From contig JAADDU010000132.1 of the NCBI GenBank assembly GCA_013153755.1, forward strand, positions 1 through 7,970: 7,970 bases of DNA, written 5' to 3'. This stretch comes from Campylobacterota bacterium. Lineage in GTDB: Bacteria; Campylobacterota; Campylobacteria; Campylobacterales; Sulfurimonadaceae. This document shows positions 1-7,970 of the stretch, one piece after another. The notes beneath the pieces are model-generated. The model did not search any database and had not been told where the DNA came from. It saw only the letters and a program-made list of their open reading frames with translations. A program made the position numbers and the translations under genes. Every line of letters begins with the position of its first letter. Position 1 is the stretch's first letter.

Positions 1-979
1 TGACTTTAGTGATGTTAGTTATTTTGATACCACTGCATCTATTTTTATAAACACACTTATAGAAAAATATAAATTAAAAAATTTGGAAGTAGAGATACTT
101 ACAAGTACAAATGATATTTTAGATACTTTAAAGTTAACATTATCCTTTAAAGAAAAAGCTCAAGAGTTACCAAAAGTTAAAAAAGATAATATTTTACAAG
201 CTATAGGTGAGAAAACATACCTATATTATAATGGTTTTATTGCATTTATAGCATTTCTTGGACAACTTTTTGCAACGAAACTATACTATCTGAAATCTTT
301 TAAAAATATACGCTTTAAAGAGATAGCTTTTGAGATAAATGAGAGTGCTATTAGAGCTTTAGGTATCATAGCATTAACAAGTTTTCTTATAGGCTTGGTC
401 GTAGCATATCAATCAGCATACCAACTAAAGATATATGGTGCAAATATATTTATAGTTGATATGCTTGGTATCTCTATATTTCGTGAGTTAGCACCACTTA
501 TGACTGCCATAGTTATAGCTGGTAGAAGTGGTTCTGCTTTTACAGCTCAAATAGGTGCTATGAAGATAACACAAGAGTTAGATGCGATGAGAACTATGGG
601 ATTTGATCCATATATATTTTTAGTTTTACCTAGAATTATAGCTCTTATTATTGCTATGCCTATACTTATCTTTGTTGCAGATATGATGGGAGTTTTTGGT
701 GGTATTTTAGTTGCAAATCTTGATTTGGGGATAACTCCACAACTTTTTTTAGAGAGATTTAGTGAGGTTGTTGCTATAAAACATTTTTATATAGGTATTT
801 TAAAAGGACCATTTTTTGCATTTTTGATAGCATCTATCGGTATATATAGAGGTTTAATGGTAAAAGATGATACACAAAGTATAGGTTTTAATACCACTAA
901 AAGTGTTGTAGAGTCTATCTTTGCAGTTATAGTATGTGATGCGATTTTTTCTATCATATTCACAAATCTGGGGATTTAG
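1..979 (+). CDS. mlaE: STAS-MlaE family ABC lipid transporter permease (5' end outside window)
   Basis: Inner-membrane permease of an MCE-type phospholipid/lipid ABC transporter, orthologous by order and type to C. jejuni iamB. The frame is open from base 2, giving 325 visible residues. The TTG at 83 is not the start: the codons before it read SDVSYFDTTASIF and then LEVEIL, the usual end of a STAS domain. A long hydrophilic linker follows. The MlaE domain has about five hydrophobic segments and the family signature FRELAPLMTAIVIAGRSGSA, continuing into TAQIGAM and ITQELDAMRTMGFDP. The stop TAG (977-979) abuts the ATG of the ATPase gene. STAS domains fused to MlaE permeases are known and are thought to regulate the transporter; that role is inferred here. 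Family assignment is firm, and the true start lies upstream. Confidence 0.93.
   Translation, partial: DFSDVSYFDTTASIFINTLIEKYKLKNLEVEILTSTNDILDTLKLTLSFKEKAQELPKVKKDNILQAIGEKTYLYYNGFIAFIAFLGQLFATKLYYLKSFKNIRFKEIAFEINESAIRALGIIALTSFLIGLVVAYQSAYQLKIYGANIFIVDMLGISIFRELAPLMTAIVIAGRSGSAFTAQIGAMKITQELDAMRTMGFDPYIFLVLPRIIALIIAMPILIFVADMMGVFGGILVANLDLGITPQLFLERFSEVVAIKHFYIGILKGPFFAFLIASIGIYRGLMVKDDTQSIGFNTTKSVVESIFAVIVCDAIFSIIFTNLGI
29..41 (-). repeat. TAGATGCAGTGGT repeat, copy 1
   Basis: ACCACTGCATCTA on the + strand, an exact copy of the 13-mer also seen at 3675, 5943 and 6585. It lies in the STAS part of the permease, reading Thr-Thr-Ala-Ser, antisense to the motif orientation. Confidence 0.7.
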
Positions 980-992
980 ATGCAGTGCATGA
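977..992 (+). repeat. TAGATGCAGTG repeat, copy 2 (16-mer variant)
   Basis: TAGATGCAGTGCATGA, containing the odd palindrome ATGCA-G-TGCAT. It holds the permease stop codon and both candidate start codons of the ATPase gene. It is identical over 16 bases to 3622-3637. Confidence 0.7.
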
Positions 993-1726
993 TTAAGGTT
1001 AGAGATATTAAAACAGTTTTTGATGAGAGAATTGTTCATAATGGACTAAATCTTAGTATAAATAAAGGTGAGATATATGGTCTCATAGGTCCAAGTGGAT
1101 GTGGAAAGACCACACTTCTTCGTGAGATGGTAATGCTTCAAGAATTTCATGGTGGTAACATAGAAATTTTAGGACATGATTTAAGTAAGATAGGTCATAA
1201 AGAAGCTCAAAGTTTAAGAAGAGAGTGGGGTGTTTTATTTCAAGCTGGTGCTTTGTTTTCATCTTTAAATCTTAAAGAAAACATATCTTTACCACTTATA
1301 GAGTATACAGATTTATCAAAAAAGATGATAGATGAGATAGTAAAGTTTAAGATAAACCTAGTAGGTTTAAAATCATCTGATGCACTACTTTACCCATCTC
1401 AGATAAGTGGTGGTATGAAGAAAAAAGCAGCATTAGCTCGTGCTTTAGCGATGGATCCTAAACTTCTTTTTTTAGATGAGCCTACAAGTGGACTTGACCC
1501 TATATCTGCAAGAGATTTTGATGCACTTATCTTAAATCTTAGAAGGCTTTTAGGTTTAACTATAGTGATGGTTTCACATGATTTACAGTCTATATATGAT
1601 ACACTAGATAGAGTTGCAATTATAGATGAAAAAAAGATAGTCTATGAGGGTGATTTGGCAAATATTAAAAATACAAAGAGTGAGTTTATACAAACATTTT
1701 TTAAAAATAGTGTAGTGAGTGAATGA
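980..1726 (+). CDS. mlaF: MlaF-type ABC transporter ATP-binding protein
   Basis: Cytosolic ATPase that powers the MlaE-type permease encoded just upstream (iamA in C. jejuni). All ABC motifs are visible in the 248 residues: Walker A GPSGCGKTT (38-46), Q-loop Gln88, signature ISGGMKKKAALAR (142-154), Walker B LLFLDEP with catalytic Glu167, D-loop SGLD, and H-loop His200. The start at 980 has GGGGA at 970-974, five bases upstream, and follows the permease stop directly. An alternative ATG at 989 would give the more usual N-terminus MIKVRDI but is further from that ribosome site. The ISGGMKKKAALARA signature is typical of the MlaF subfamily. The gene is translationally coupled to its neighbours. 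The start region coincides with one copy of the TAGATGCAGTG repeat. Confidence 0.95.
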   Translation: MQCMIKVRDIKTVFDERIVHNGLNLSINKGEIYGLIGPSGCGKTTLLREMVMLQEFHGGNIEILGHDLSKIGHKEAQSLRREWGVLFQAGALFSSLNLKENISLPLIEYTDLSKKMIDEIVKFKINLVGLKSSDALLYPSQISGGMKKKAALARALAMDPKLLFLDEPTSGLDPISARDFDALILNLRRLLGLTIVMVSHDLQSIYDTLDRVAIIDEKKIVYEGDLANIKNTKSEFIQTFFKNSVVSE

Positions 1727-1738
1727 GGATAAAAATTT

Positions 1739-2722
1739 ATGAATAACAAAGTAAATTATACAATAGTTGGATTAGTAGTACTTTTAGGAATCGCAATGAT
1801 GGTGGGTTTTGGGTACTGGTTACTTAAACCATCAGAAGATTTAAAAATAAAAAAATATTATATAAGATTTGATGAATCAGTTTTAGGATTAAATGTAGAT
1901 GCAGCAGTAAAATACAGAGGTATAAATGTAGGAAAAGTAACTGCACTTAGGATAAGTCCAAAAAATAGTGAGCAAGTAGAAGTTTTAGTAAGTATTTTAA
2001 AAACTACTCCCATAAAAGAGAATACAGTTGCAAAATTAACTGCTCAAGGTATCACTGGACTTAGTTATATAAACCTCTCAATGGGCGATAATGATGCTCC
2101 ACCATTAGAAGTTCAAGATGGAGAGAAATATCCAGTAATAAAAAGTATCCCATCCTTTTTTGAAAATATAGAGCAGTCTTTAGGAACTGTATCTACAAAC
2201 TTATCAAAAACACTAGTAAGAACATCAGAACTTTTAGATGATGAAAATCAGAAAGAGGTAACTAAAGTTTTAAAAAAGACTGCCTCTTTTATGGATAAGA
2301 TGGATAAATTACTAAATGATAAAACTATAAAACATCTACAATCATCTGCAAAAAACCTTGATAGTACTATGAAAAACATAGATAGTGTAACAGCTAAAAT
2401 TGACAATATGCTACCAAAGATAGAACATTTTGTTGATCATAGTGTTTCATGGGAAGAAAAAACATCAGATGCTTTTGCTTCTATTACAAAAAGCTATCTT
2501 GGTATTAAAGCTTCAATGGATGAGTTTAGATCTGCCATAGCAAATGGAGATTTCAATATCAAAGAGATAACAAGAGATATAGTGCCAACTTTAAATAACA
2601 CTTTAATAGAGATGCAAAGTCTTATGGTAAAGGTTGAAACTACACTAAATAAGCATGAACGAAGTCCTAGCGATATTTTATTTATGCAAGAAAAGATTAA
2701 AAAAGGTCCTGGAGAGATATGA
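1739..2722 (+). CDS. mlaD: MlaD/MCE family substrate-binding protein
   Basis: Membrane-anchored periplasmic MCE protein that would bind lipid and form the hexameric channel of the transporter. It has 327 residues. An N-terminal transmembrane anchor lies at about 8-29. One MCE domain spans about 38-115, with the recognisable KYRGINVGKVTAL and the hydrophobic pore segment GLSYINL (107-113). A long helical, probably coiled-coil region (about 140-305) follows, rich in Lys/Asp/Ser/Thr heptad-like stretches. The tail SPSDILF...GPGE (310-326) resembles the end of other MCE proteins. The ribosome site GAGGA (1725-1729) overlaps the ATPase stop, 9 bases before ATG. With one MCE domain plus a helical extension it is longer than E. 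coli MlaD (about 183 residues), so it could bridge more of the periplasm. The substrate is not shown by the sequence. Confidence 0.93.
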   Translation: MNNKVNYTIVGLVVLLGIAMMVGFGYWLLKPSEDLKIKKYYIRFDESVLGLNVDAAVKYRGINVGKVTALRISPKNSEQVEVLVSILKTTPIKENTVAKLTAQGITGLSYINLSMGDNDAPPLEVQDGEKYPVIKSIPSFFENIEQSLGTVSTNLSKTLVRTSELLDDENQKEVTKVLKKTASFMDKMDKLLNDKTIKHLQSSAKNLDSTMKNIDSVTAKIDNMLPKIEHFVDHSVSWEEKTSDAFASITKSYLGIKASMDEFRSAIANGDFNIKEITRDIVPTLNNTLIEMQSLMVKVETTLNKHERSPSDILFMQEKIKKGPGEI

Positions 2723-3321
2723 TGAAAAATATATTTATATCTATATGTGTATTGTTCTTGGTAATTGGTTGTTCAACAACAAAACCAACTATAGTAGAAT
2801 ATAAGTTATCTTTAGAAGATTTAAATCAAAAAACTGTTTCAAAAGGATGTAAAGATAAATCTTTAAAAGTTGCACAAGCATTTAGCTCAAACTCTTTGAT
2901 GTCTTTAAATATGAATTATGTGATAGGAAAATCAAAAATCTATTCATACTCTCAAGCCCAATGGAATAATTCTCCAAATCAAGAAATATCCCAACAAATA
3001 GTAAAACTCTTAAGAGATTCTAAACTTTTTAAAACTACACAAAGTGCAAAATCAAGAACTAGTAGTGATTTTATTTTAGAAACTAGTATCGAAGATTTTA
3101 TGCAGTATTATGATGAAAAGATTAAAACTTCTTATGTGAAAGTATCTATAAATATGTCACTTATAGATGTGAAAACAAATAAAGTTGTAGCAAGTAAAAC
3201 TTTTTTTACTAAGTTAAATACTACATCACTAGATGCATATGGTGGAGTAGATGCTTTGCAAGTTGGATTAAGAAATATACTTAGTCAAAGTTTAGAGTTT
3301 TTTAATGAGGTTTGTAGATGA
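2722..3321 (+). CDS. ABC-type transport auxiliary lipoprotein (PqiC/ABC_trans_aux-like)
   Basis: Probable outer-membrane or periplasmic lipoprotein partner of the MCE transporter. From the second ATG it has 199 residues. A short signal peptide ends in the lipobox VIGC with lipidated Cys17, followed by Ser-Thr-Thr. The body fits the ABC_trans_aux pattern (PF03886): YSYSQAQWNNSP, then a helix ISQQIVKLLRDSKLFKT, the strands DFILETSIEDFMQYYDE and VKVSINMSLIDVKTNKVVASK, and a final helix. ATG at 2719 overlaps the previous stop by 4 bases, but GGAGAG at 2711-2716 is only 2 bases from it. ATG at 2722 has a 5-base spacing and gives a shorter signal peptide, so I prefer it. Two more cysteines, Cys43 and Cys198, could form a disulfide in the periplasm. 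Sequence similarity in this family is low, so the assignment leans partly on context. Confidence 0.82.
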   Translation: MKNIFISICVLFLVIGCSTTKPTIVEYKLSLEDLNQKTVSKGCKDKSLKVAQAFSSNSLMSLNMNYVIGKSKIYSYSQAQWNNSPNQEISQQIVKLLRDSKLFKTTQSAKSRTSSDFILETSIEDFMQYYDEKIKTSYVKVSINMSLIDVKTNKVVASKTFFTKLNTTSLDAYGGVDALQVGLRNILSQSLEFFNEVCR

Positions 3322-4568
3322 TAAGTGAAGAAGAGTATAAAACAAGAAGAGCTATATTAGGAGATACTTTAGATAAAAATTCATTAGCAGTTCTTTTTAG
3401 TGCAAATCATAAAACTCGTTCAAATGACACATCTTATCCATATAGACAAGATAGTAATTTTTACTATCTTAGTGGATTTAAAGAAGATAACTCATGCCTA
3501 CTTCTTATAAAAGATAAAAAAAACATAAGAACAGTTTTATTTGTTCAAAAAAAAGACAAAGAAAAAGAGTTATGGAATGGTAAAAGAGTTGGTGTTAAAA
3601 AAGCTAAAAAAAGATTTTTAGTAGATGCAGTGCATGAATACACAGAATTTGAAAATATATTTAAAAAAGAGATAACCACTGCATCTACTTTGTATTTTGA
3701 TTTTAACCTTGATTACTCAAAAGTAAAAGTCCTAAAAAGGTATGCTAAAAATTTAAATACACATAAAAATCTCTCTATACCTATTCAAAAGATGAGGTTA
3801 ATTAAATCAGATACAGAGATACTACTCATAAAAAAAGCGATAGAGATTACAAAAAAGGCACACCATACCTTAATGAAGTTAGATAAATTGAATAAAAATG
3901 AATTTGAACTTCAAGCTCAACTAGAGTATGACTTTAAAAGGAATGGTGCATATAGTGATGCTTATACTTCCATTGTAGCTTCAGGAAATAATGCAAATAC
4001 TCTGCATTATATTAAAAATGATAAACCTTTAAAAAATGGTACGCTTATACTTATAGATGCTGGATGTGAATATGAGTATTATGCAAGTGATATAACAAGG
4101 ACTATCCCTGTAAATGGAACTTTCACAAAAGCACAAAAAGAGCTTTATAATTTGGTGTTAAATACTCAAGCAGAAGTTATCAAGATGATAAAACCAAATA
4201 TAAAAAGAAGTCAGTTACAAAAAAAAGCAATAAAATGTTTAACAGAAGGTATGGTTAATCTTGGTATCTTAAAAGGTGATGTTAAAAAACTTATAAAAAA
4301 ACAAAAATATAAAAAATACTATCCTCATGGTATAGGACATTGGATGGGGTTAGATGTACATGATGAATGCCCATATATAGATGAAAAAGGAAAAGAGATA
4401 AAACTTATGAAGGGGATGGTTTTAACTATAGAACCAGCGATATATATAGATAAAAATGATAAACAAGTACCTAAAAAATATCGTGGAATTGGTATAAGGA
4501 TAGAAGATGATATCTTAGTTTCTTTAGATGGATATGAAAACTTGTCAAAATCCATCCTTAAGTATTAA
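3318..4568 (+). CDS. pepP: Xaa-Pro aminopeptidase (M24B, pita-bread metalloprotease)
   Basis: Cytosolic dinuclear-metal peptidase that removes an N-terminal residue preceding proline. It has 416 residues, against 441 for E. coli PepP. The AMP_N domain (about 1-150) carries the typical YPYRQDSNFYYLSGF (40-54). The M24 catalytic domain (about 165-410) keeps all five metal ligands: Asp247 (IDAG), Asp258 (SDITRT), His341 (HGIGHWMGLDVHD), Glu372 (TIEPAIYI) and Glu396 (GIRIEDD). The accessory histidines His230 (LHY) and His348 are also present. ATG overlaps the lipoprotein stop (ATGA), with TGAGG seven bases upstream, so the gene is coupled to the lipid-transport operon. It has no signal peptide. 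It ends tail-to-tail with the S4 gene, overlapping it by 4 bases. It contains two copies of the TAGATGCAGTG repeat in opposite orientation. Confidence 0.95.
   Translation: MISEEEYKTRRAILGDTLDKNSLAVLFSANHKTRSNDTSYPYRQDSNFYYLSGFKEDNSCLLLIKDKKNIRTVLFVQKKDKEKELWNGKRVGVKKAKKRFLVDAVHEYTEFENIFKKEITTASTLYFDFNLDYSKVKVLKRYAKNLNTHKNLSIPIQKMRLIKSDTEILLIKKAIEITKKAHHTLMKLDKLNKNEFELQAQLEYDFKRNGAYSDAYTSIVASGNNANTLHYIKNDKPLKNGTLILIDAGCEYEYYASDITRTIPVNGTFTKAQKELYNLVLNTQAEVIKMIKPNIKRSQLQKKAIKCLTEGMVNLGILKGDVKKLIKKQKYKKYYPHGIGHWMGLDVHDECPYIDEKGKEIKLMKGMVLTIEPAIYIDKNDKQVPKKYRGIGIRIEDDILVSLDGYENLSKSILKY
3622..3637 (+). repeat. TAGATGCAGTG repeat, copy 3 (16-mer variant)
   Basis: TAGATGCAGTGCATGA inside pepP, where it encodes Val-Asp-Ala-Val-His-Glu. 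It matches copy 2 over 16 bases although the reading frame differs. Confidence 0.7.
3675..3687 (-). repeat. TAGATGCAGTGGT repeat, copy 4
   Basis: ACCACTGCATCTA on the + strand inside pepP (Thr-Thr-Ala-Ser), inverted relative to copy 3. The 11-bp cores lie 44 bases apart. Confidence 0.7.
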
Positions 4569-4768
4569 ATTACTTCGATTGTTACTTCTGCTACTTCTAT
4601 AATATCGCCAGAGACTATCTTGGCTCTTTTTCTTAACTCTACTTGAGAGTTTCTTGTTACATGACCATCTGCAATTACCATCTTTGCATGTGCTCCACTA
4701 TCTACTAAGTCTAATACTTTTAAAAGTTTAAATAACTCTATGTAGTCACCATTTAGTTCAAACTTCAC
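4565..4768 (-). CDS. small S4-domain RNA-binding protein (YbcJ-like)
   Basis: A 67-residue protein that is essentially one S4 RNA-binding domain. It reads as LDLVDSGAHAKMVIADGHVT, then N-x-x-x-E-x-R-K-R-x-K-I-V-x-GD, then an I/V-rich end. This matches E. coli YbcJ (about 70 residues) through the SGA.AK..IA.G.V and E.RKR.KIV.G patterns, which make up the S4 RNA contact surface. The RNA partner is unknown; ribosome or tRNA-related roles are typical of the superfamily. The start is GTG at 4768, supported by AAGAGG (4780-4775) six bases upstream inside the previous gene. Only one base separates it from that gene's stop, so the two are probably translationally coupled. It shares the palindromic TTAA of its stop with the pepP stop on the other strand. 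Confidence 0.88.
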   Translation of the reverse strand: MKFELNGDYIELFKLLKVLDLVDSGAHAKMVIADGHVTRNSQVELRKRAKIVSGDIIEVAEVTIEVI

Positions 4769-4769
4769 T

Positions 4770-5312
4770 TTAAGCCTCTTGATCTATGATAGAATACCCT
4801 AAGTCATACATAGCTTTATCTACCATCTCTACAGCTGCCTGCATTGTCTTTTGGCTTATTTCTGGAAGTTCTCCACCCCACATAGCCTCAGCTTCTTGAA
4901 AACCTTGTAGCATACCTTCTCTACCTGCACGCATTAGTTTTTCATCTCCATTTGAAGTATTGATAACAAAGTTTGCAATTCTTTCAGATGTTTGTTTAAT
5001 CCCAAAGATACCATCTTCACTGATAAGCTCGGCTGCTTCATCTTGTGAAAGCTCTGCTATTGGTTTCCCTGTATATCCAATATCACTTAAGAAGTTTTTA
5101 AAATCTTGATAATTTGTTTGAAATTTATCATCTTTATTTAAAATAGAAACTTGAGAAGTTGCAGAGTTTATCATCATCTCATTTGCTCTTTTTGAGATCT
5201 GCTCTCTTATCTCACTTGCTTCTTTTTGAGATATTTTTTGTGTAAAGTCCGTTTTTATAGGAGATTGACTCTCTTTAGTTGTGATATTTGGTATATTTGA
5301 TGCTATTTTCAT
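4770..5312 (-). CDS. conserved hypothetical protein, mostly helical, 180 aa
   Basis: I do not recognise a functional domain. The 180-residue product has no signal peptide or membrane segment and looks cytosolic, acidic and helical. A low-complexity N-terminus (about 1-30, Ser/Thr/Lys/Gln) leads to a charged helix with KEASEIREQISKRANEMM (30-47). A segment NYQDFKNFLSDIGYTGKPIAELS follows, and then a C-terminal half with FGIKQTSERIANFVI, GREGMLQGFQEAEAMWGGELPE and a closing amphipathic helix. From memory, similar Campylobacterota proteins carry the legacy name hydrogenase-4 component G, but nothing in the sequence supports a hydrogenase role, and no hydrogenase genes are in the window. The start ATG at 5312 has AAGGA (5323-5319) six bases upstream. 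It is the first gene of a two-gene unit with the S4 protein. Confidence 0.8.
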   Translation of the reverse strand: MKIASNIPNITTKESQSPIKTDFTQKISQKEASEIREQISKRANEMMINSATSQVSILNKDDKFQTNYQDFKNFLSDIGYTGKPIAELSQDEAAELISEDGIFGIKQTSERIANFVINTSNGDEKLMRAGREGMLQGFQEAEAMWGGELPEISQKTMQAAVEMVDKAMYDLGYSIIDQEA

Positions 5313-5325
5313 GTTCTATCCTTAT

Positions 5326-5351
5326 AGTATATATGTTAACAATATATATCG
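5326..5351 (-). promoter_or_regulatory. candidate promoter of the hypothetical-S4 gene pair
   Basis: On the minus strand, upstream of the ATG at 5312, the run TCGATATATATTG offers a -10-like TATATT (5346-5341), giving a leader of about 22 bases. A second hexamer, TATACT (5331-5326), seems too close to the start codon. The run also contains CGATAT (5351-5346), which resembles the -10 of flagellar sigma-28 promoters in Campylobacterota, but I see no matching upstream element. No -35 consensus is visible, as is usual in this phylum. Tentative. Confidence 0.35.
5328..5349. repeat. imperfect AT-rich dyad centred on GTTAAC
   Basis: TATATAT, the palindrome GTTAAC (5335-5340) and then AATATATAT form a near-symmetrical dyad with one extra base on the right. 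It overlaps the candidate promoter of the minus-strand gene pair, so it could be an operator. AT-rich composition makes chance symmetry plausible. Confidence 0.3.
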
Positions 5352-5389
5352 ACAAATTTAAAATAAAGTAAAATCTTTATATTTATTCG

Positions 5390-5415
5390 TTAATTTAAAA
5401 AAATTAAGATATAAT
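5390..5415 (+). promoter_or_regulatory. sigma-70-type promoter of the cold-shock gene
   Basis: A perfect TATAAT at 5410-5415 lies 139 bases before the csp ATG. The hexamer 17 bases upstream is TCGTTA, a poor -35, and the region is A/T-rich, as is normal for vegetative promoters in Campylobacterota. Immediately upstream, TTAATTT (5390-5396) and AAATTAA (5401-5407) form a 7-bp inverted repeat with a 4-base spacer between the -35 and -10 positions. Transcription would start near 5421-5423. Confidence 0.65.
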
Positions 5416-5420
5416 ACTCT

Positions 5421-5554
5421 CGATGAAAAGATGAGGCTCGAGTTCATCTTTAGTGTGTGATATTATGACTTGTTCAATCGTGACCCTAAAGACTCTCCAA
5501 TTTTTGACTCCACTTCTTAATTTTTTAAGAGTGAATTTTATATAAGGCTTAATA
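5421..5554 (+). promoter_or_regulatory. long structured 5' leader of the cold-shock mRNA
   Basis: The predicted transcript has about 130 untranslated bases before the csp ATG. A long leader is characteristic of cspA-type mRNAs, where it controls temperature-dependent translation. Two stems are visible. AAAGATGA (5427-5434) pairs with TCATCTTT (5444-5451), 8 bp around a 9-base loop. CACT-T-CTTAA (5511-5520) pairs with TTAAG-AGTG (5525-5533) around TTTT, ending 10 bases before the ribosome site AAGG (5544-5547). The leader also holds short open frames at 5423 (MKR), 5431 (9 codons) and 5465-5545 (26 codons), the last stopping exactly at the csp ribosome site. Thermosensing is inferred from the gene family, not shown. 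Confidence 0.5.
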
Positions 5555-5773
5555 ATGGCAGAATTATTAGACGGATCAGTAAAATGGTTCAACGAAGAAA
5601 AAGGTTATGGATTTATCCAACAAGATAATGGTGGAAAAGATGTATTCGTACATTTCCGTCAAGTTAATCACACTGGTGGTGGTCGTGTTTCTCTAGCAGA
5701 AGGACAAAAAGTTACATTTGAAGTAGGCGAAGGTCAAAAAGGACCACAAGCTGAAAACGTAACTCCACTGTAG
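5555..5773 (+). CDS. cold-shock protein, CspA family
   Basis: A 72-residue single-domain cold-shock protein, a single-stranded RNA/DNA-binding OB fold that acts as an RNA chaperone in the cytosol. It begins with [14 protein letters not shown], which carries the aromatic RNA-binding residues and RNP1 (KGYGFI), followed by RNP2 (DVFVHF). It ends with the usual EGQKVTFEV and KGPQAENV. The loop [13 protein letters not shown] between RNP2 and the next strand is slightly longer and more Gly-rich than in E. coli CspA. Arg codons are CGT, unlike the AGA/AGG of most neighbours, which suggests strong expression. The ribosome site AAGG lies seven bases before ATG. The gene ends in tandem stops, TAG TAA. 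It is flanked by its own promoter and a hairpin terminator, so it is probably monocistronic. Confidence 0.96.
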
Positions 5774-5783
5774 TAACCTTTTC

Positions 5784-5813
5784 TTTTACAGGCTTTTTGC
5801 CTGTAAAACTTTT
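5784..5813 (+). terminator. intrinsic terminator of the cold-shock gene, overlapping ackA
   Basis: TTTTACAGGC (5784-5793) and GCCTGTAAAA (5799-5808) form a perfect 10-bp stem with a TTTTT loop, followed on the + strand by CTTTT. It starts 10 bases after the csp stop. The T tract is short. On the minus strand the stem is followed by GAAAAGG with no T run, so it should work poorly for ackA transcripts. The stem and loop include the last ackA codons and stop. Confidence 0.75.
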
Positions 5814-6829
5814 AAACACTCCCTAGCTATTTCAAGTTCTTCATCTGTTTTTATAACTAATATTTTTGACTTTTCTAAAAGATTATCTTTTGTAATACTA
5901 TCTCGTATGTAAGAAGAATTTTCACCTATGCCACCACTAAAAACCACTGCATCTACTCTACCTATAAGAGCCATATAAGACCCAACATATTTTCTAGCTC
6001 TTCTTATCATCATAGCCAATGCTAGTTTTGATTCTTTAGAATTTGAATTTTGTATTTTTCTTATGTCATTATCGTTGCATATACCGATAAGTCCAGATTG
6101 TTTGTTTAAAACATCATCAACTTCATCAACACTTAAATTTAATTCTCTTTGCATATATAAGACTATAGCAGGGTCTATATCTCCACATCTAGTTCCCATT
6201 ATTAAACCCTCTAAAGGTGTAAAACCCATGGAAGTATCTATACTCTTGCCATTTTTGATGGCACAAATACTAGCTCCATTTCCTAAATGTAGAGTAATAA
6301 TATTCATTTCATCTATATTCTTATTTAAAATTTTTGCACACTCTTTTAAAAGATATCCGTGAGAAGTCCCATGAAAACCATATCTTCTTATCTTATGTTT
6401 TTCATACATCTTATAAGGGATAGCATATAAGTAAGCTTCCATTGGCATAGTTGTATGAAAAGCTGTGTCAAAAACTGCTACTTGTATGGCAGTTGGTGCT
6501 TTTTTTATAGATACTTTTATCCCTTCTACATTTGCAGGATTATGTAGTGGAGCTAAAGAGCTTAGAGAGTTTATTTTTTGTAAAACCACTGCATCTAAAA
6601 TAGTTGGTGAGTTAAATTCTTCTCCACCATGTACAACTCTATGTCCTATCACATCAATATGGCTAAAATCTATATCTATACTCTCTATAGCTTCATGGTG
6701 ATTTTTGATTTTTGAGTCTTTTGCACCTATATTTTGTACTAAAAGCTCATATAAAACTTTTTCCTCTTGCATATCAAAAAGTTTAAATTTTAAAGATGAA
6801 CTACCTGTATTTATAACTGCTATTTTCAT
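5786..6829 (-). CDS. ackA: acetate kinase, unusually short form
   Basis: Cytosolic enzyme interconverting acetyl phosphate + ADP with acetate + ATP, the partner of the upstream pta. From ATG it has 347 residues, against about 400 for the family. The active site is intact by comparison with Methanosarcina AckA: Asn7 (INTGSSSLKF), Arg64 (IGHRVVHGG), His96 (PLHNPA), Asp121 (VFDTAFH), His153 (RRYGFHGTSH), Arg214 (GTRCGDIDP), GGIGEN (299-304) and the final TDEELEIA (Glu330/331). About 24 residues are missing between Asn7 and Arg64, and about 24 between GGIGEN and TDEEL. ATG at 6829 is preferred over GTG at 6832, because AGAGGA (6841-6836) is six bases from ATG but only three from GTG. The ATG is two bases after the pta stop. 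The last codons lie in the csp terminator. Confidence 0.95.
   Translation of the reverse strand: MKIAVINTGSSSLKFKLFDMQEEKVLYELLVQNIGAKDSKIKNHHEAIESIDIDFSHIDVIGHRVVHGGEEFNSPTILDAVVLQKINSLSSLAPLHNPANVEGIKVSIKKAPTAIQVAVFDTAFHTTMPMEAYLYAIPYKMYEKHKIRRYGFHGTSHGYLLKECAKILNKNIDEMNIITLHLGNGASICAIKNGKSIDTSMGFTPLEGLIMGTRCGDIDPAIVLYMQRELNLSVDEVDDVLNKQSGLIGICNDNDIRKIQNSNSKESKLALAMMIRRARKYVGSYMALIGRVDAVVFSGGIGENSSYIRDSITKDNLLEKSKILVIKTDEELEIARECLKVLQAKSL
5943..5955 (-). repeat. TAGATGCAGTGGT repeat, copy 5
   Basis: ACCACTGCATCTA on the + strand. It lies in ackA, in the gene's sense direction, encoding Val-Asp-Ala-Val-Val just before the SGGIGEN motif. Confidence 0.7.
6585..6597 (-). repeat. TAGATGCAGTGGT repeat, copy 6
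   Basis: ACCACTGCATCTA on the + strand. It lies in ackA in the sense direction, encoding Leu-Asp-Ala-Val-Val, in a poorly conserved part of the protein. Confidence 0.7.
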
Positions 6830-6831
6830 CA

Positions 6832-7970
6832 CTAATCCTCTGCTTGTATAGCAGTAATGGCAACAGTATTAACTATATCTGCTATTAAACATCCACGACT
6901 TAAATCGTTTATGGGTTTGTTTAAACCTTGGAGTATTGGACCTATAGCTATAGCACCACTTGAGCGTTGAACTGCTTTGTATGTGTTATTTCCTGTGTTT
7001 AAATCTGGAAATATTAAAACATTTGCTTCACCAGCTATTTTAGAGTTTGGTAATTTTTTAAGTGCTACGCTTTTGTTAACTGCTGCGTCATATTGGATTG
7101 GGCCATCTATAAGAAGTTTAGGATTTTGTTTTTTTACGATTTGTGTTGCTTTTTTTACTTTATCTACATCCTCTCCACTACCACTATCTCCAGTTGAGTA
7201 AGAAAGCATTGCTACTTTTGGCTCTATGGAAAAAGCTTTGGCAGTTTTAGCACATGATATCGCTATTTGAGCTAGATCCTCTGCATTTGGATCTTTATTT
7301 ATAGCACAATCCCCATATATAAGTACCTCACTCTCTAAACACATAAAAAATAAGCTAGAAACTATGGATGTGTCTGGTTTTGTTTTGATGATTTGTAGTG
7401 CTGGTCTTATGGTTTCTCCAGTTGAACTAATAGCCCCACTAACCATACCATCTGCATAGCCTAAGTGTACCATCATGGTCGCAAAATAGTTAGCATGACT
7501 CATGGCATCTTTTGCCCCTTCTAGTGTTAGGCTTTTATGTTTACGCATCTCATAAAAAGTTTTACTAAATTCATCTATAAGATTAGAAGTATTATGGTTT
7601 ATGATTTGAACTTTACTTAAATCAAGCCCAAATCTTAGAGAGTTTTGTATAACATCTTCTCTGTCTCCTAAGAGTATGATATCTGCAACTTCTCTACGCA
7701 TTATGATTTCTGCTGCTCTTAAAATCCTCTCATCACTACTCTCTGGAAGCACTATCCTTTTCTTTCTTTTTCTAGCTATCTCAAAAATCTGATACTCAAA
7801 CATCATAGGTGTCATTACATTTTTAACCTCTGTTTGTATCTTACTTTCTATCGCTTCTATATCTACACTAGAATTAAAAAGACCTAGAGCTAAAGCTATC
7901 TTTCTATGACTATCTACACTTACCCTTGCATGGGCTTTTGAGAGCTTTTTGGCTGTCGTATATGTATCAT
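6832..7970 (-). CDS. pta: phosphate acetyltransferase, long form (5' end outside window)
   Basis: Converts acetyl-CoA + phosphate to acetyl phosphate + CoA in the cytosol, feeding AckA; reversed, the pair assimilates acetate. The frame is open to the right edge, giving 378 visible residues, so the ATG at 7815 is internal. Upstream codons read TTAKKLSKAHARVSVDSHRK and correspond to the segment joining the DRTGG domain to the catalytic domain in long Pta proteins such as the 714-residue E. coli enzyme. The catalytic PTA domain starts at about visible residue 56 (FEYQIFEIARKRKKRIVLPE). It continues with DGMVSGA, YGDCAIN, AMLSYSTGDSGSG, LIDGPIQYDAAV, IFPDLNTGNNTYKAVQRS and NDLSRGCLIAD, including the Ser-Arg...Asp active-site set (357, 358, 364). 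The N-terminal BioD-like and DRTGG domains would lie outside. Stop TAG, then ackA. Confidence 0.96.
   Translation of the reverse strand, partial: DTYTTAKKLSKAHARVSVDSHRKIALALGLFNSSVDIEAIESKIQTEVKNVMTPMMFEYQIFEIARKRKKRIVLPESSDERILRAAEIIMRREVADIILLGDREDVIQNSLRFGLDLSKVQIINHNTSNLIDEFSKTFYEMRKHKSLTLEGAKDAMSHANYFATMMVHLGYADGMVSGAISSTGETIRPALQIIKTKPDTSIVSSLFFMCLESEVLIYGDCAINKDPNAEDLAQIAISCAKTAKAFSIEPKVAMLSYSTGDSGSGEDVDKVKKATQIVKKQNPKLLIDGPIQYDAAVNKSVALKKLPNSKIAGEANVLIFPDLNTGNNTYKAVQRSSGAIAIGPILQGLNKPINDLSRGCLIADIVNTVAITAIQAED

Follow-up and report, generated by a model that had tools for sequence, protein, structure and literature searches.

A short word repeated in a Sulfurimonas-like contig as a candidate DNA-uptake sequence, and the different words of its sibling genomes

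The window analysed here, taken to be a complete metagenome contig of 7,970 bp from a Sulfurimonas-like bacterium, exhibits six perfect copies of an 11-letter word, TAGATGCAGTG, two on the plus strand and four on the minus strand. Its genes follow one another in the order mlaE, mlaF, mlaD, auxiliary lipoprotein, pepP, S4-domain protein, unassigned protein, cold-shock protein, ackA, and pta. The mlaE permease gene (2..979, plus strand, PF02405) is truncated at its 5' end by the contig edge, the frame being open from base 2. It is followed on the same strand by mlaF, which encodes the ABC ATPase (980..1726, PF00005), mlaD (1739..2722, PF02470), the gene of an ABC-type transport auxiliary lipoprotein (2719..3321, PF03886), and a pepP-like gene for an M24 aminopeptidase P (3318..4568, PF05195 and PF00557). 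The genes of acetate kinase, ackA (5786..6832, PF00871), and of phosphate acetyltransferase, pta (6832..7815, PF01515), lie on the minus strand. No perfect copy of the word is present in mlaD, in the lipoprotein gene, or in pta.

All six copies lie at the coordinates and on the strands given in the original prediction, and four of them extend to TAGATGCAGTGGT and two to TAGATGCAGTGCATGA, as had also been noted there. Copy 1 (31..41, minus strand, TAGATGCAGTGGT form) is antisense to the 5' part of the mlaE frame, at Asp-Thr-Thr-Ala-Ser (DTTAS), while copy 2 (977..987, plus strand, TAGATGCAGTGCATGA form) provides both the TAG stop of mlaE and the ATG start of mlaF. The pepP gene holds copy 3 (3622..3632, plus strand, TAGATGCAGTGCATGA form), read in sense as Val-Asp-Ala-Val (LVDAVH), and copy 4 (3677..3687, minus strand, TAGATGCAGTGGT form), antisense to Thr-Thr-Ala-Ser (ITTAST); these two form an opposed pair spaced 55 bp apart. 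Copies 5 (5945..5955) and 6 (6587..6597), both on the minus strand and of the TAGATGCAGTGGT form, are read in sense in ackA, as Val-Asp-Ala-Val-Val (RVDAVV) and, at a poorly conserved site, as Leu-Asp-Ala-Val-Val (ILDAVV). These contexts bear out the earlier statement that the copies fall in different genes and frames (mlaE, pepP, ackA) and once across a stop/start junction. When up to two mismatches to TAGATGCAGTG are allowed, the window exhibits 11 sites, six of them perfect, none with one mismatch, and five with two; the sites at 579 and 1896, already described as degenerate, each differ from the word by two mismatches. The density of perfect copies is 0.75/kb.

Such a density is not expected by chance. 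Shuffling the window leads to an expectation of 0.01 copies, and none of 200 shuffles gives six. Across 135 Sulfurimonas genomes (genomes and loci are designated below by G and L numbers), which total about 278 Mb by rounded sizes, TAGATGCAGTG occurs 220 times, or 0.8 per Mb, and is present in 87 of them. At this genus rate 0.006 copies are expected in the window and the probability of at least six is about 9e-17; even if the density of the richest genome searched (G002, 16 copies) is assumed, the probability is 1e-11. As a control, dispersed 11-mers were counted in 168 window-sized pieces cut from sampled relatives. The best count was 2-3 in 107 of the 110 control windows from genomes without the three sibling words described below, and 7-8 in the other three, which come from G119, G136, and G035. 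Two of the 34 control windows from GGCATGTGGA genomes reach 6, and the 18 from AAACGCAG and six from CTCACGCAG genomes stay at 2-3, those words being shorter than 11 letters. Some sampled stretches, including that of G002, had been chosen around TAGATGCAGTG sites or on contigs that hold the word, which biases de novo counts of this word there and leaves the whole-genome counts unaffected.

With regard to the three exceptional control windows, the repeated word lies entirely on one strand in L139 (G136) and L194 (G119), as in a repeat-rich gene, and L132 (G035) was judged a repeat-rich gene from its many overlapping words. The apparent words of G035, G119, G136, and G087 (GGAATGCATA) were dropped as protein or local repeats. 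G002 was likewise dropped as a sister dialect, five of the six TAGATGCAGTG copies read in it and 12 of 17 TAGATGCAG copies being in the Asp-Ala-Val frame.

The AckA of the window is at most 71% identical to the acetate kinases found in named genomes, and in a tree of AckA and Pta the window groups with G001, G002, G003, and G014 (group support 0.974; the order inside the group is not settled). Acetate kinase exhibits a shorter form of about 345 residues in the window (5786-6832), L001-L012, L014, and L017 (matches of about 1,005-1,041 bases), and has about 386-394 residues in L013, L015, L016, and L018-L023 (1,156-1,182 bases).

At the sites orthologous to the six copies, the word is absent from the relatives compared. 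It was found in none of three relatives at the mlaE copy-1 site, at the mlaE/mlaF junction, where L196 has the TAGATG part, and at each of the two pepP sites. At each of the two ackA sites it was found at none of the 22 loci among the matches listed (at least 45% identity), which represent 20 genomes because L163 was counted beside L012 of the same contig and G024 was counted twice (L091, L133). At the copy-5 position most relatives exhibit VDAIV or VDALV, and several copy sites show little conservation or lie a single step from TAGATGCAGTG (RVDAIVF to RVDAVVF). As the orthologous sites are without the word and some of them are one step away, the window copies would most simply have arisen one by one in their own lineage, by substitution and not by copying of a segment. 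Conservation of TAGATGCAGTG in sister species, which the original prediction had proposed to examine, was thus not observed; the siblings have words of their own, which number from hundreds to thousands per genome and exhibit several of the properties of TAGATGCAGTG.

These sibling words emerged when words were counted de novo in sampled DNA of 87 genomes, with L163 (same contig as L012) excluded from the sample groups, and when the flanks were inspected; they were then counted in the 135 genomes. A genome was considered word-bearing when it held at least 120 copies and at least three times the count of the reversed-word control. By this cut, GGCATGTGGA is carried by 14 genomes, CTCACGCAG by seven, and AAACGCAG by 30, in total 51 genomes with 124 to 2,331 copies. 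There is essentially one word per genome, the sole overlap being G039, in which AAACGCAG is lopsided; its 111 forward and 30 reverse copies suggest a local repeat array.

The strand counts of the sibling words are near equal. For GGCATGTGGA the highest counts, given as forward/reverse, are those of G075 (663/639, 1,302 in total) and G051 (644/654, 1,298), with reversed-word controls of 1 and 2, followed by G049 (424/463), G063 (422/437), G070 (410/430), G015 (375/383), G064 (345/376), G072 (198/203), G005 (181/176), G009 (155/159), G010 (131/129), G135 (97/86), G076 (76/65), and G126 (73/67). It is weaker in G004 (81 copies), G013 (71), G120 (55), G134 (36), and G112 (31), and the remaining genomes have at most 13. 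CTCACGCAG is most abundant in G039 (227/260, 487 in total, control 8), G090 (184/213), G034 (185/196), G088 (179/186), G102 (188/165), G053 (166/140), and G071 (128/139); G096 has 33 copies and the remaining genomes at most 14. The AAACGCAG counts are led by G113 (1187/1144, that is 2,331 copies in about 2.6 Mb, control 83), G114 (908/914), and G054 (833/865), with G042 (751/699) and G094 (680/687) among the other genomes of the 30. G088 and G090 show a weak excess of AAACGCAG (101 and 97 copies, controls 32 and 34).

Closer properties of the words were read from samples of 380 kb from ten genomes for GGCATGTGGA, 514 kb from four for CTCACGCAG, and 207 kb from eight for AAACGCAG, in which the words occur at 0.24-0.51/kb, several siblings being well under one per kb. 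GGCATGTGGA, whose wider consensus is approximately TTGGCATGTGGAA, exhibits 155 perfect copies versus 69 with one mismatch (reversed control 0 and 1), and 17.4% of its copies are non-coding versus 8.5% of the bases, which is an excess. When five genomes are pooled, GGCATGTGG is found in each of the six frames and also outside long open reading frames (ORFs). Among close pairs, opposed orientations outnumber direct ones for GGCATGTGGA (10 vs 3) and AAACGCAG (6 vs 3), and CTCACGCAG has no opposed excess. One low-GC stretch of 20 kb, L124 (G063:C9:240000-259999), holds no GGCATGTGGA copy versus 859 genome-wide, and has matches to a type IIG restriction enzyme and to ThsA-like and PD-Lambda-4-like proteins; this single stretch is in line with word-poor foreign DNA.

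The word of the window shares the six bases A[CT]GCAG with CTCACGCAG and AAACGCAG, for which the chance is 0.001 with random words and 0.0002 with shuffled words; as this triple was chosen after the words had been seen, a factor of about four should be allowed. In a tree of 20 genomes, AAACGCAG genomes stand in three places, namely as G054/G113/G114, which neighbour the GGCATGTGGA genomes G051/G075, as G083/G094, next to the CTCACGCAG clade, and as G024/G048. The GGCATGTGGA genomes do not form one clade either, some deep nodes of the AckA and Pta tree being weak. As AAACGCAG and GGCATGTGGA genomes are scattered in this way, words would seem to switch, or specificity to be exchanged, between lineages.

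Based on these observations, TAGATGCAGTG is quite probably a DNA-uptake sequence, which would mark own-kind DNA for preferential uptake. On balance, we also favour the broader proposal that Sulfurimonas evolved a third self-DNA uptake system, independent of those of Neisseriaceae and Pasteurellaceae. Its various dialects would rest in part on the core A[CT]GCAG, the recurrence of one dialect in separate clades would reflect a change of receptor specificity or its exchange among species, and the window would come from a lineage using its own dialect, TAGATGCAGTGG. If so, TAGATGCAGTG should be equally abundant across the rest of the window's genome, the words should be bound during uptake, and the different words should belong, as dialects, to a single system with a receptor of changing specificity. 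A surface receptor, associated with a pilus of the competence machinery, would recognise the word, so that alleles carrying it would enter the cell and recombine at a higher rate, and copies would build up wherever the protein sequence tolerates them. Such an uptake bias is the likeliest mechanism. What the analysis shows directly is that the words are over-represented and balanced over the strands, that TAGATGCAGTG is absent from the orthologous sites compared, that a genome seldom has a second word, and that three of the four words share a core. The uptake-type word of the original prediction therefore stands as the best-supported reading, through the words of the sister species and not through the window's own genome. 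None of the literature titles and abstracts listed for Campylobacterota, Epsilonproteobacteria, Sulfurimonas, Campylobacter, or Arcobacter describes an uptake word in them. If the proposal is true, sulfur-oxidising bacteria would add a third case, unrelated to the other two, and thereby show that uptake words evolve repeatedly, and a genus whose word changes between close clades would make the joint change of word and receptor testable in sister clades.

Several observations weigh against this uptake reading. None of the 135 genomes uses TAGATGCAGTG in bulk, the maximum being 16 copies, and its 12-mer form is found in 57 of 398 Campylobacterales genomes (drawn from a larger group), with a maximum of 4. 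Three of the six window copies are read as [VLI]-Asp-Ala-Val, a common frame that also includes most copies read in G002. As many as 84 of the 135 genomes are below the cut for all three sibling words. Sites with one mismatch outnumber perfect ones for both CTCACGCAG (121 perfect vs 252, control 2 and 71) and AAACGCAG (105 perfect vs 238, control 3 and 166), and neither prefers non-coding DNA, the non-coding shares being 0% vs 6.7% of bases for CTCACGCAG (0/121 outside ORFs) and 3.8% vs 8.1% for AAACGCAG. The frames of CTCACGCAG are skewed in G039, with 46 of 90 copies in a single one. The spacing of the three sibling words is no more even than random (coefficient of variation 1.01-1.31), and GGCATGTGGA joins the other three words through GC[AG]T alone, for which the chance is 0.05.

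The competence genes, whose evidence covers ComEC and the N-methyl pilins of relatives, point in both directions. The ComEC family was found in 123 of the 135 genomes, and each of the 29 genomes searched for N-methyl pilins has them, so the competence genes which the original prediction had suggested looking for are present in the genus; ComEC is equally common in word-free genomes, which again speaks against a link with the words, as do the pilin comparisons below. The sequence-specific minor pilin that it had also suggested was not found: the GspH family PF12019, which we take to include ComP- and FimT-type pilins, gave no hit at E <= 0.01 in the 47 Sulfurimonas genomes searched, where a pilin too divergent for the profile may have been missed, and the pilins that were compared do not sort by word. 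At 20 loci near comEC, one to three N-methyl pilins were recognised each, and in G024 two pilins lie directly upstream of priA, about seven kb from comEC. The pilin p1 beside priA was rejected as receptor, since past residue 25 that of G075 (a GGCATGTGGA genome) is 68% identical to that of G114 (AAACGCAG) and 28% identical to that of the same-word G051, and those of G114 and G113, which share a word, are just 25% identical. The pilin p2 was rejected as well: that of G114 is 71% identical to that of G094 and 50% identical to that of its neighbour G113 (all AAACGCAG genomes), and the p2 of G113 is 62% identical to that of G049, a GGCATGTGGA genome. At a second locus, GspI/GspJ-like pilins are alike across words and in word-free genomes, as judged by eye and from their names.

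Two further features of these loci were observed. Among the priA-adjacent pilins (L254 of G075, L265 of G114, L261 of G094, and L264 of G113), p1 of G075 and G114 and p2 of G114 and G094 exhibit identities exceeding those to nearer relatives, and these pilins seem to have been exchanged between lineages. In G039, the ComEC frame (L253, 14863-15948) is broken by a TGA inside the Competence domain, which reflects either a fault in the assembly or a disrupted competence gene.

The traits of known uptake sequences were taken from PMC1626085 and PMC3630211. Uptake sequences were still given as two families in a 2025 paper (PMC12616744), and conserved inner cores typify both the neisserial and the pasteurellacean dialects (PMC12616744, PMC3630211). 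The neisserial DNA uptake sequences (DUS) comprise eight dialects with the inner core CTG, which follow the core-genome tree (PMC3630211). The words described here resemble them in being short, up to about 1/kb, alike on both strands, and present in many exact copies, in differing between lineages as dialects that keep an inner core and, for some of the words, in exhibiting opposed pairs (PMC3630211, PMC1626085, PMC12616744). In contrast to neisserial DUS, they occur in another phylum, the four words differ by inspection from the ATGCCGTCTGAA consensus (PMC5031613), the search of 47 genomes found no GspH-family (ComP/FimT-type) pilin, and a given word recurs in tree groups that stand apart, whereas neisserial dialects track the core genome (PMC3630211). 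They share with the uptake signal sequences (USS) of Pasteurellaceae (Hin, Apl) a word length of 8-10 bp, balanced strands, gain by substitution, and words that differ among related clades (PMC1626085), but the GCGG core of AAGTGCGGT or ACAAGCGGT is on neither strand of the four words (PMC12616744), and here three abundant words, besides that of the window, occur within one genus. With regard to the traits of the class, a frequency of about 1 per kb is approached by the window and the richest siblings, perfect copies outnumber one-mismatch sites for the window (6 and 0) and for GGCATGTGGA, not for CTCACGCAG or AAACGCAG, and the absence of orientation bias, the dialects around a shared core, and the competence genes in the genus all agree with it. 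Because the words match the sequences of neither family and the neisserial type of receptor was not found, we assign them to neither; they appear to be neither neisserial DUS nor pasteurellacean USS.

Other explanations of the words can be weighed against the same data. If the common [LVI]-Asp-Ala-Val peptide were written with fixed codons, TAGATGCAGTG could be a by-product of coding, and this frame indeed holds 37 of the 53 distinct copies read at other loci (some of which were fetched for holding the word) in addition to half of those in the window. Nevertheless, the window copies outside it, two antisense Thr-Thr-Ala-Ser and one stop/start junction, would alone be expected 0.0019 times (P about 1e-9), and the genus rate used as null already includes the peptide effect; we regard a coding artefact as very improbable. 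A clustering confined to this 8-kb contig, without a function across the genome, would fit the rarity of TAGATGCAGTG in every relative searched, but the copies span unrelated genes over 6.6 kb, only control windows of GGCATGTGGA genomes match their count, bar the three ascribed to repeat-rich genes, and the A[CT]GCAG core is common to two genome-wide words, which leaves this explanation hardly credible.

The words could also be sites of the Chi or KOPS type, which a recombination nuclease or a DNA translocase recognises in a single orientation as it moves along the chromosome. Such sites are likewise short, asymmetric, non-palindromic, and genome-wide, and the Chi site of E. coli, GCTGGTGG, slightly resembles GCATGTGG and GCAGTGG. 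However, the 2.03-Mb contig of G039 exhibits one mid-contig flip of GC skew, as for a nearly complete chromosome, and in 21 stretches of this genome 43 CTCACGCAG copies are leading and 47 lagging (P 0.75), so that the replichore bias which the original prediction had proposed to look for is absent in this one sibling and for this one word. Neighbouring words have the same orientation in 49 of 128 cases for GGCATGTGGA, 49 of 95 for CTCACGCAG, and 35 of 95 for AAACGCAG, where polar sites would clearly exceed half, and the window itself has two plus and four minus copies. We therefore find Chi- or KOPS-like sites improbable. Finally, the words may be targets of a methyltransferase or of a nucleoid or transcription protein, accumulating for protection, compaction, or regulation and not for uptake. 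The confinement of CTCACGCAG to ORFs in the samples would suit such targets, as would the negative outcome of the receptor searches. In transformation of Campylobacter, self-DNA is said to be discriminated through methylation of a common short motif and not through an over-represented word; this system belongs to the same phylum and also serves self-DNA recognition in transformation. Exact words of 8-11 bp, present in hundreds of copies within genes and in several frames, nevertheless fit uptake words better, the window's word is absent at orthologous sites, and the words turn over between close clades. Regulatory sites, moreover, have a looser consensus than uptake words in the account of PMC1626085. 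Targets of this kind are thus an unlikely explanation.

Some further words were observed in the samples. The palindrome TACATGTA is dense in G041 (10 in 20 kb, L154) and in G021 (15 in 41 kb, L021 and L158), and words related to it rank high in the samples of G016, G025, G027, and G033; this palindrome may be a further word of the same sort or serve in regulation. AAACGCCA, with 8 copies in 20 kb, and AAACGCGA, with 8 in about 29 kb, found in L176 (G069) and in L006 and L136 (G006), look like further dialects of AAACGCAG.

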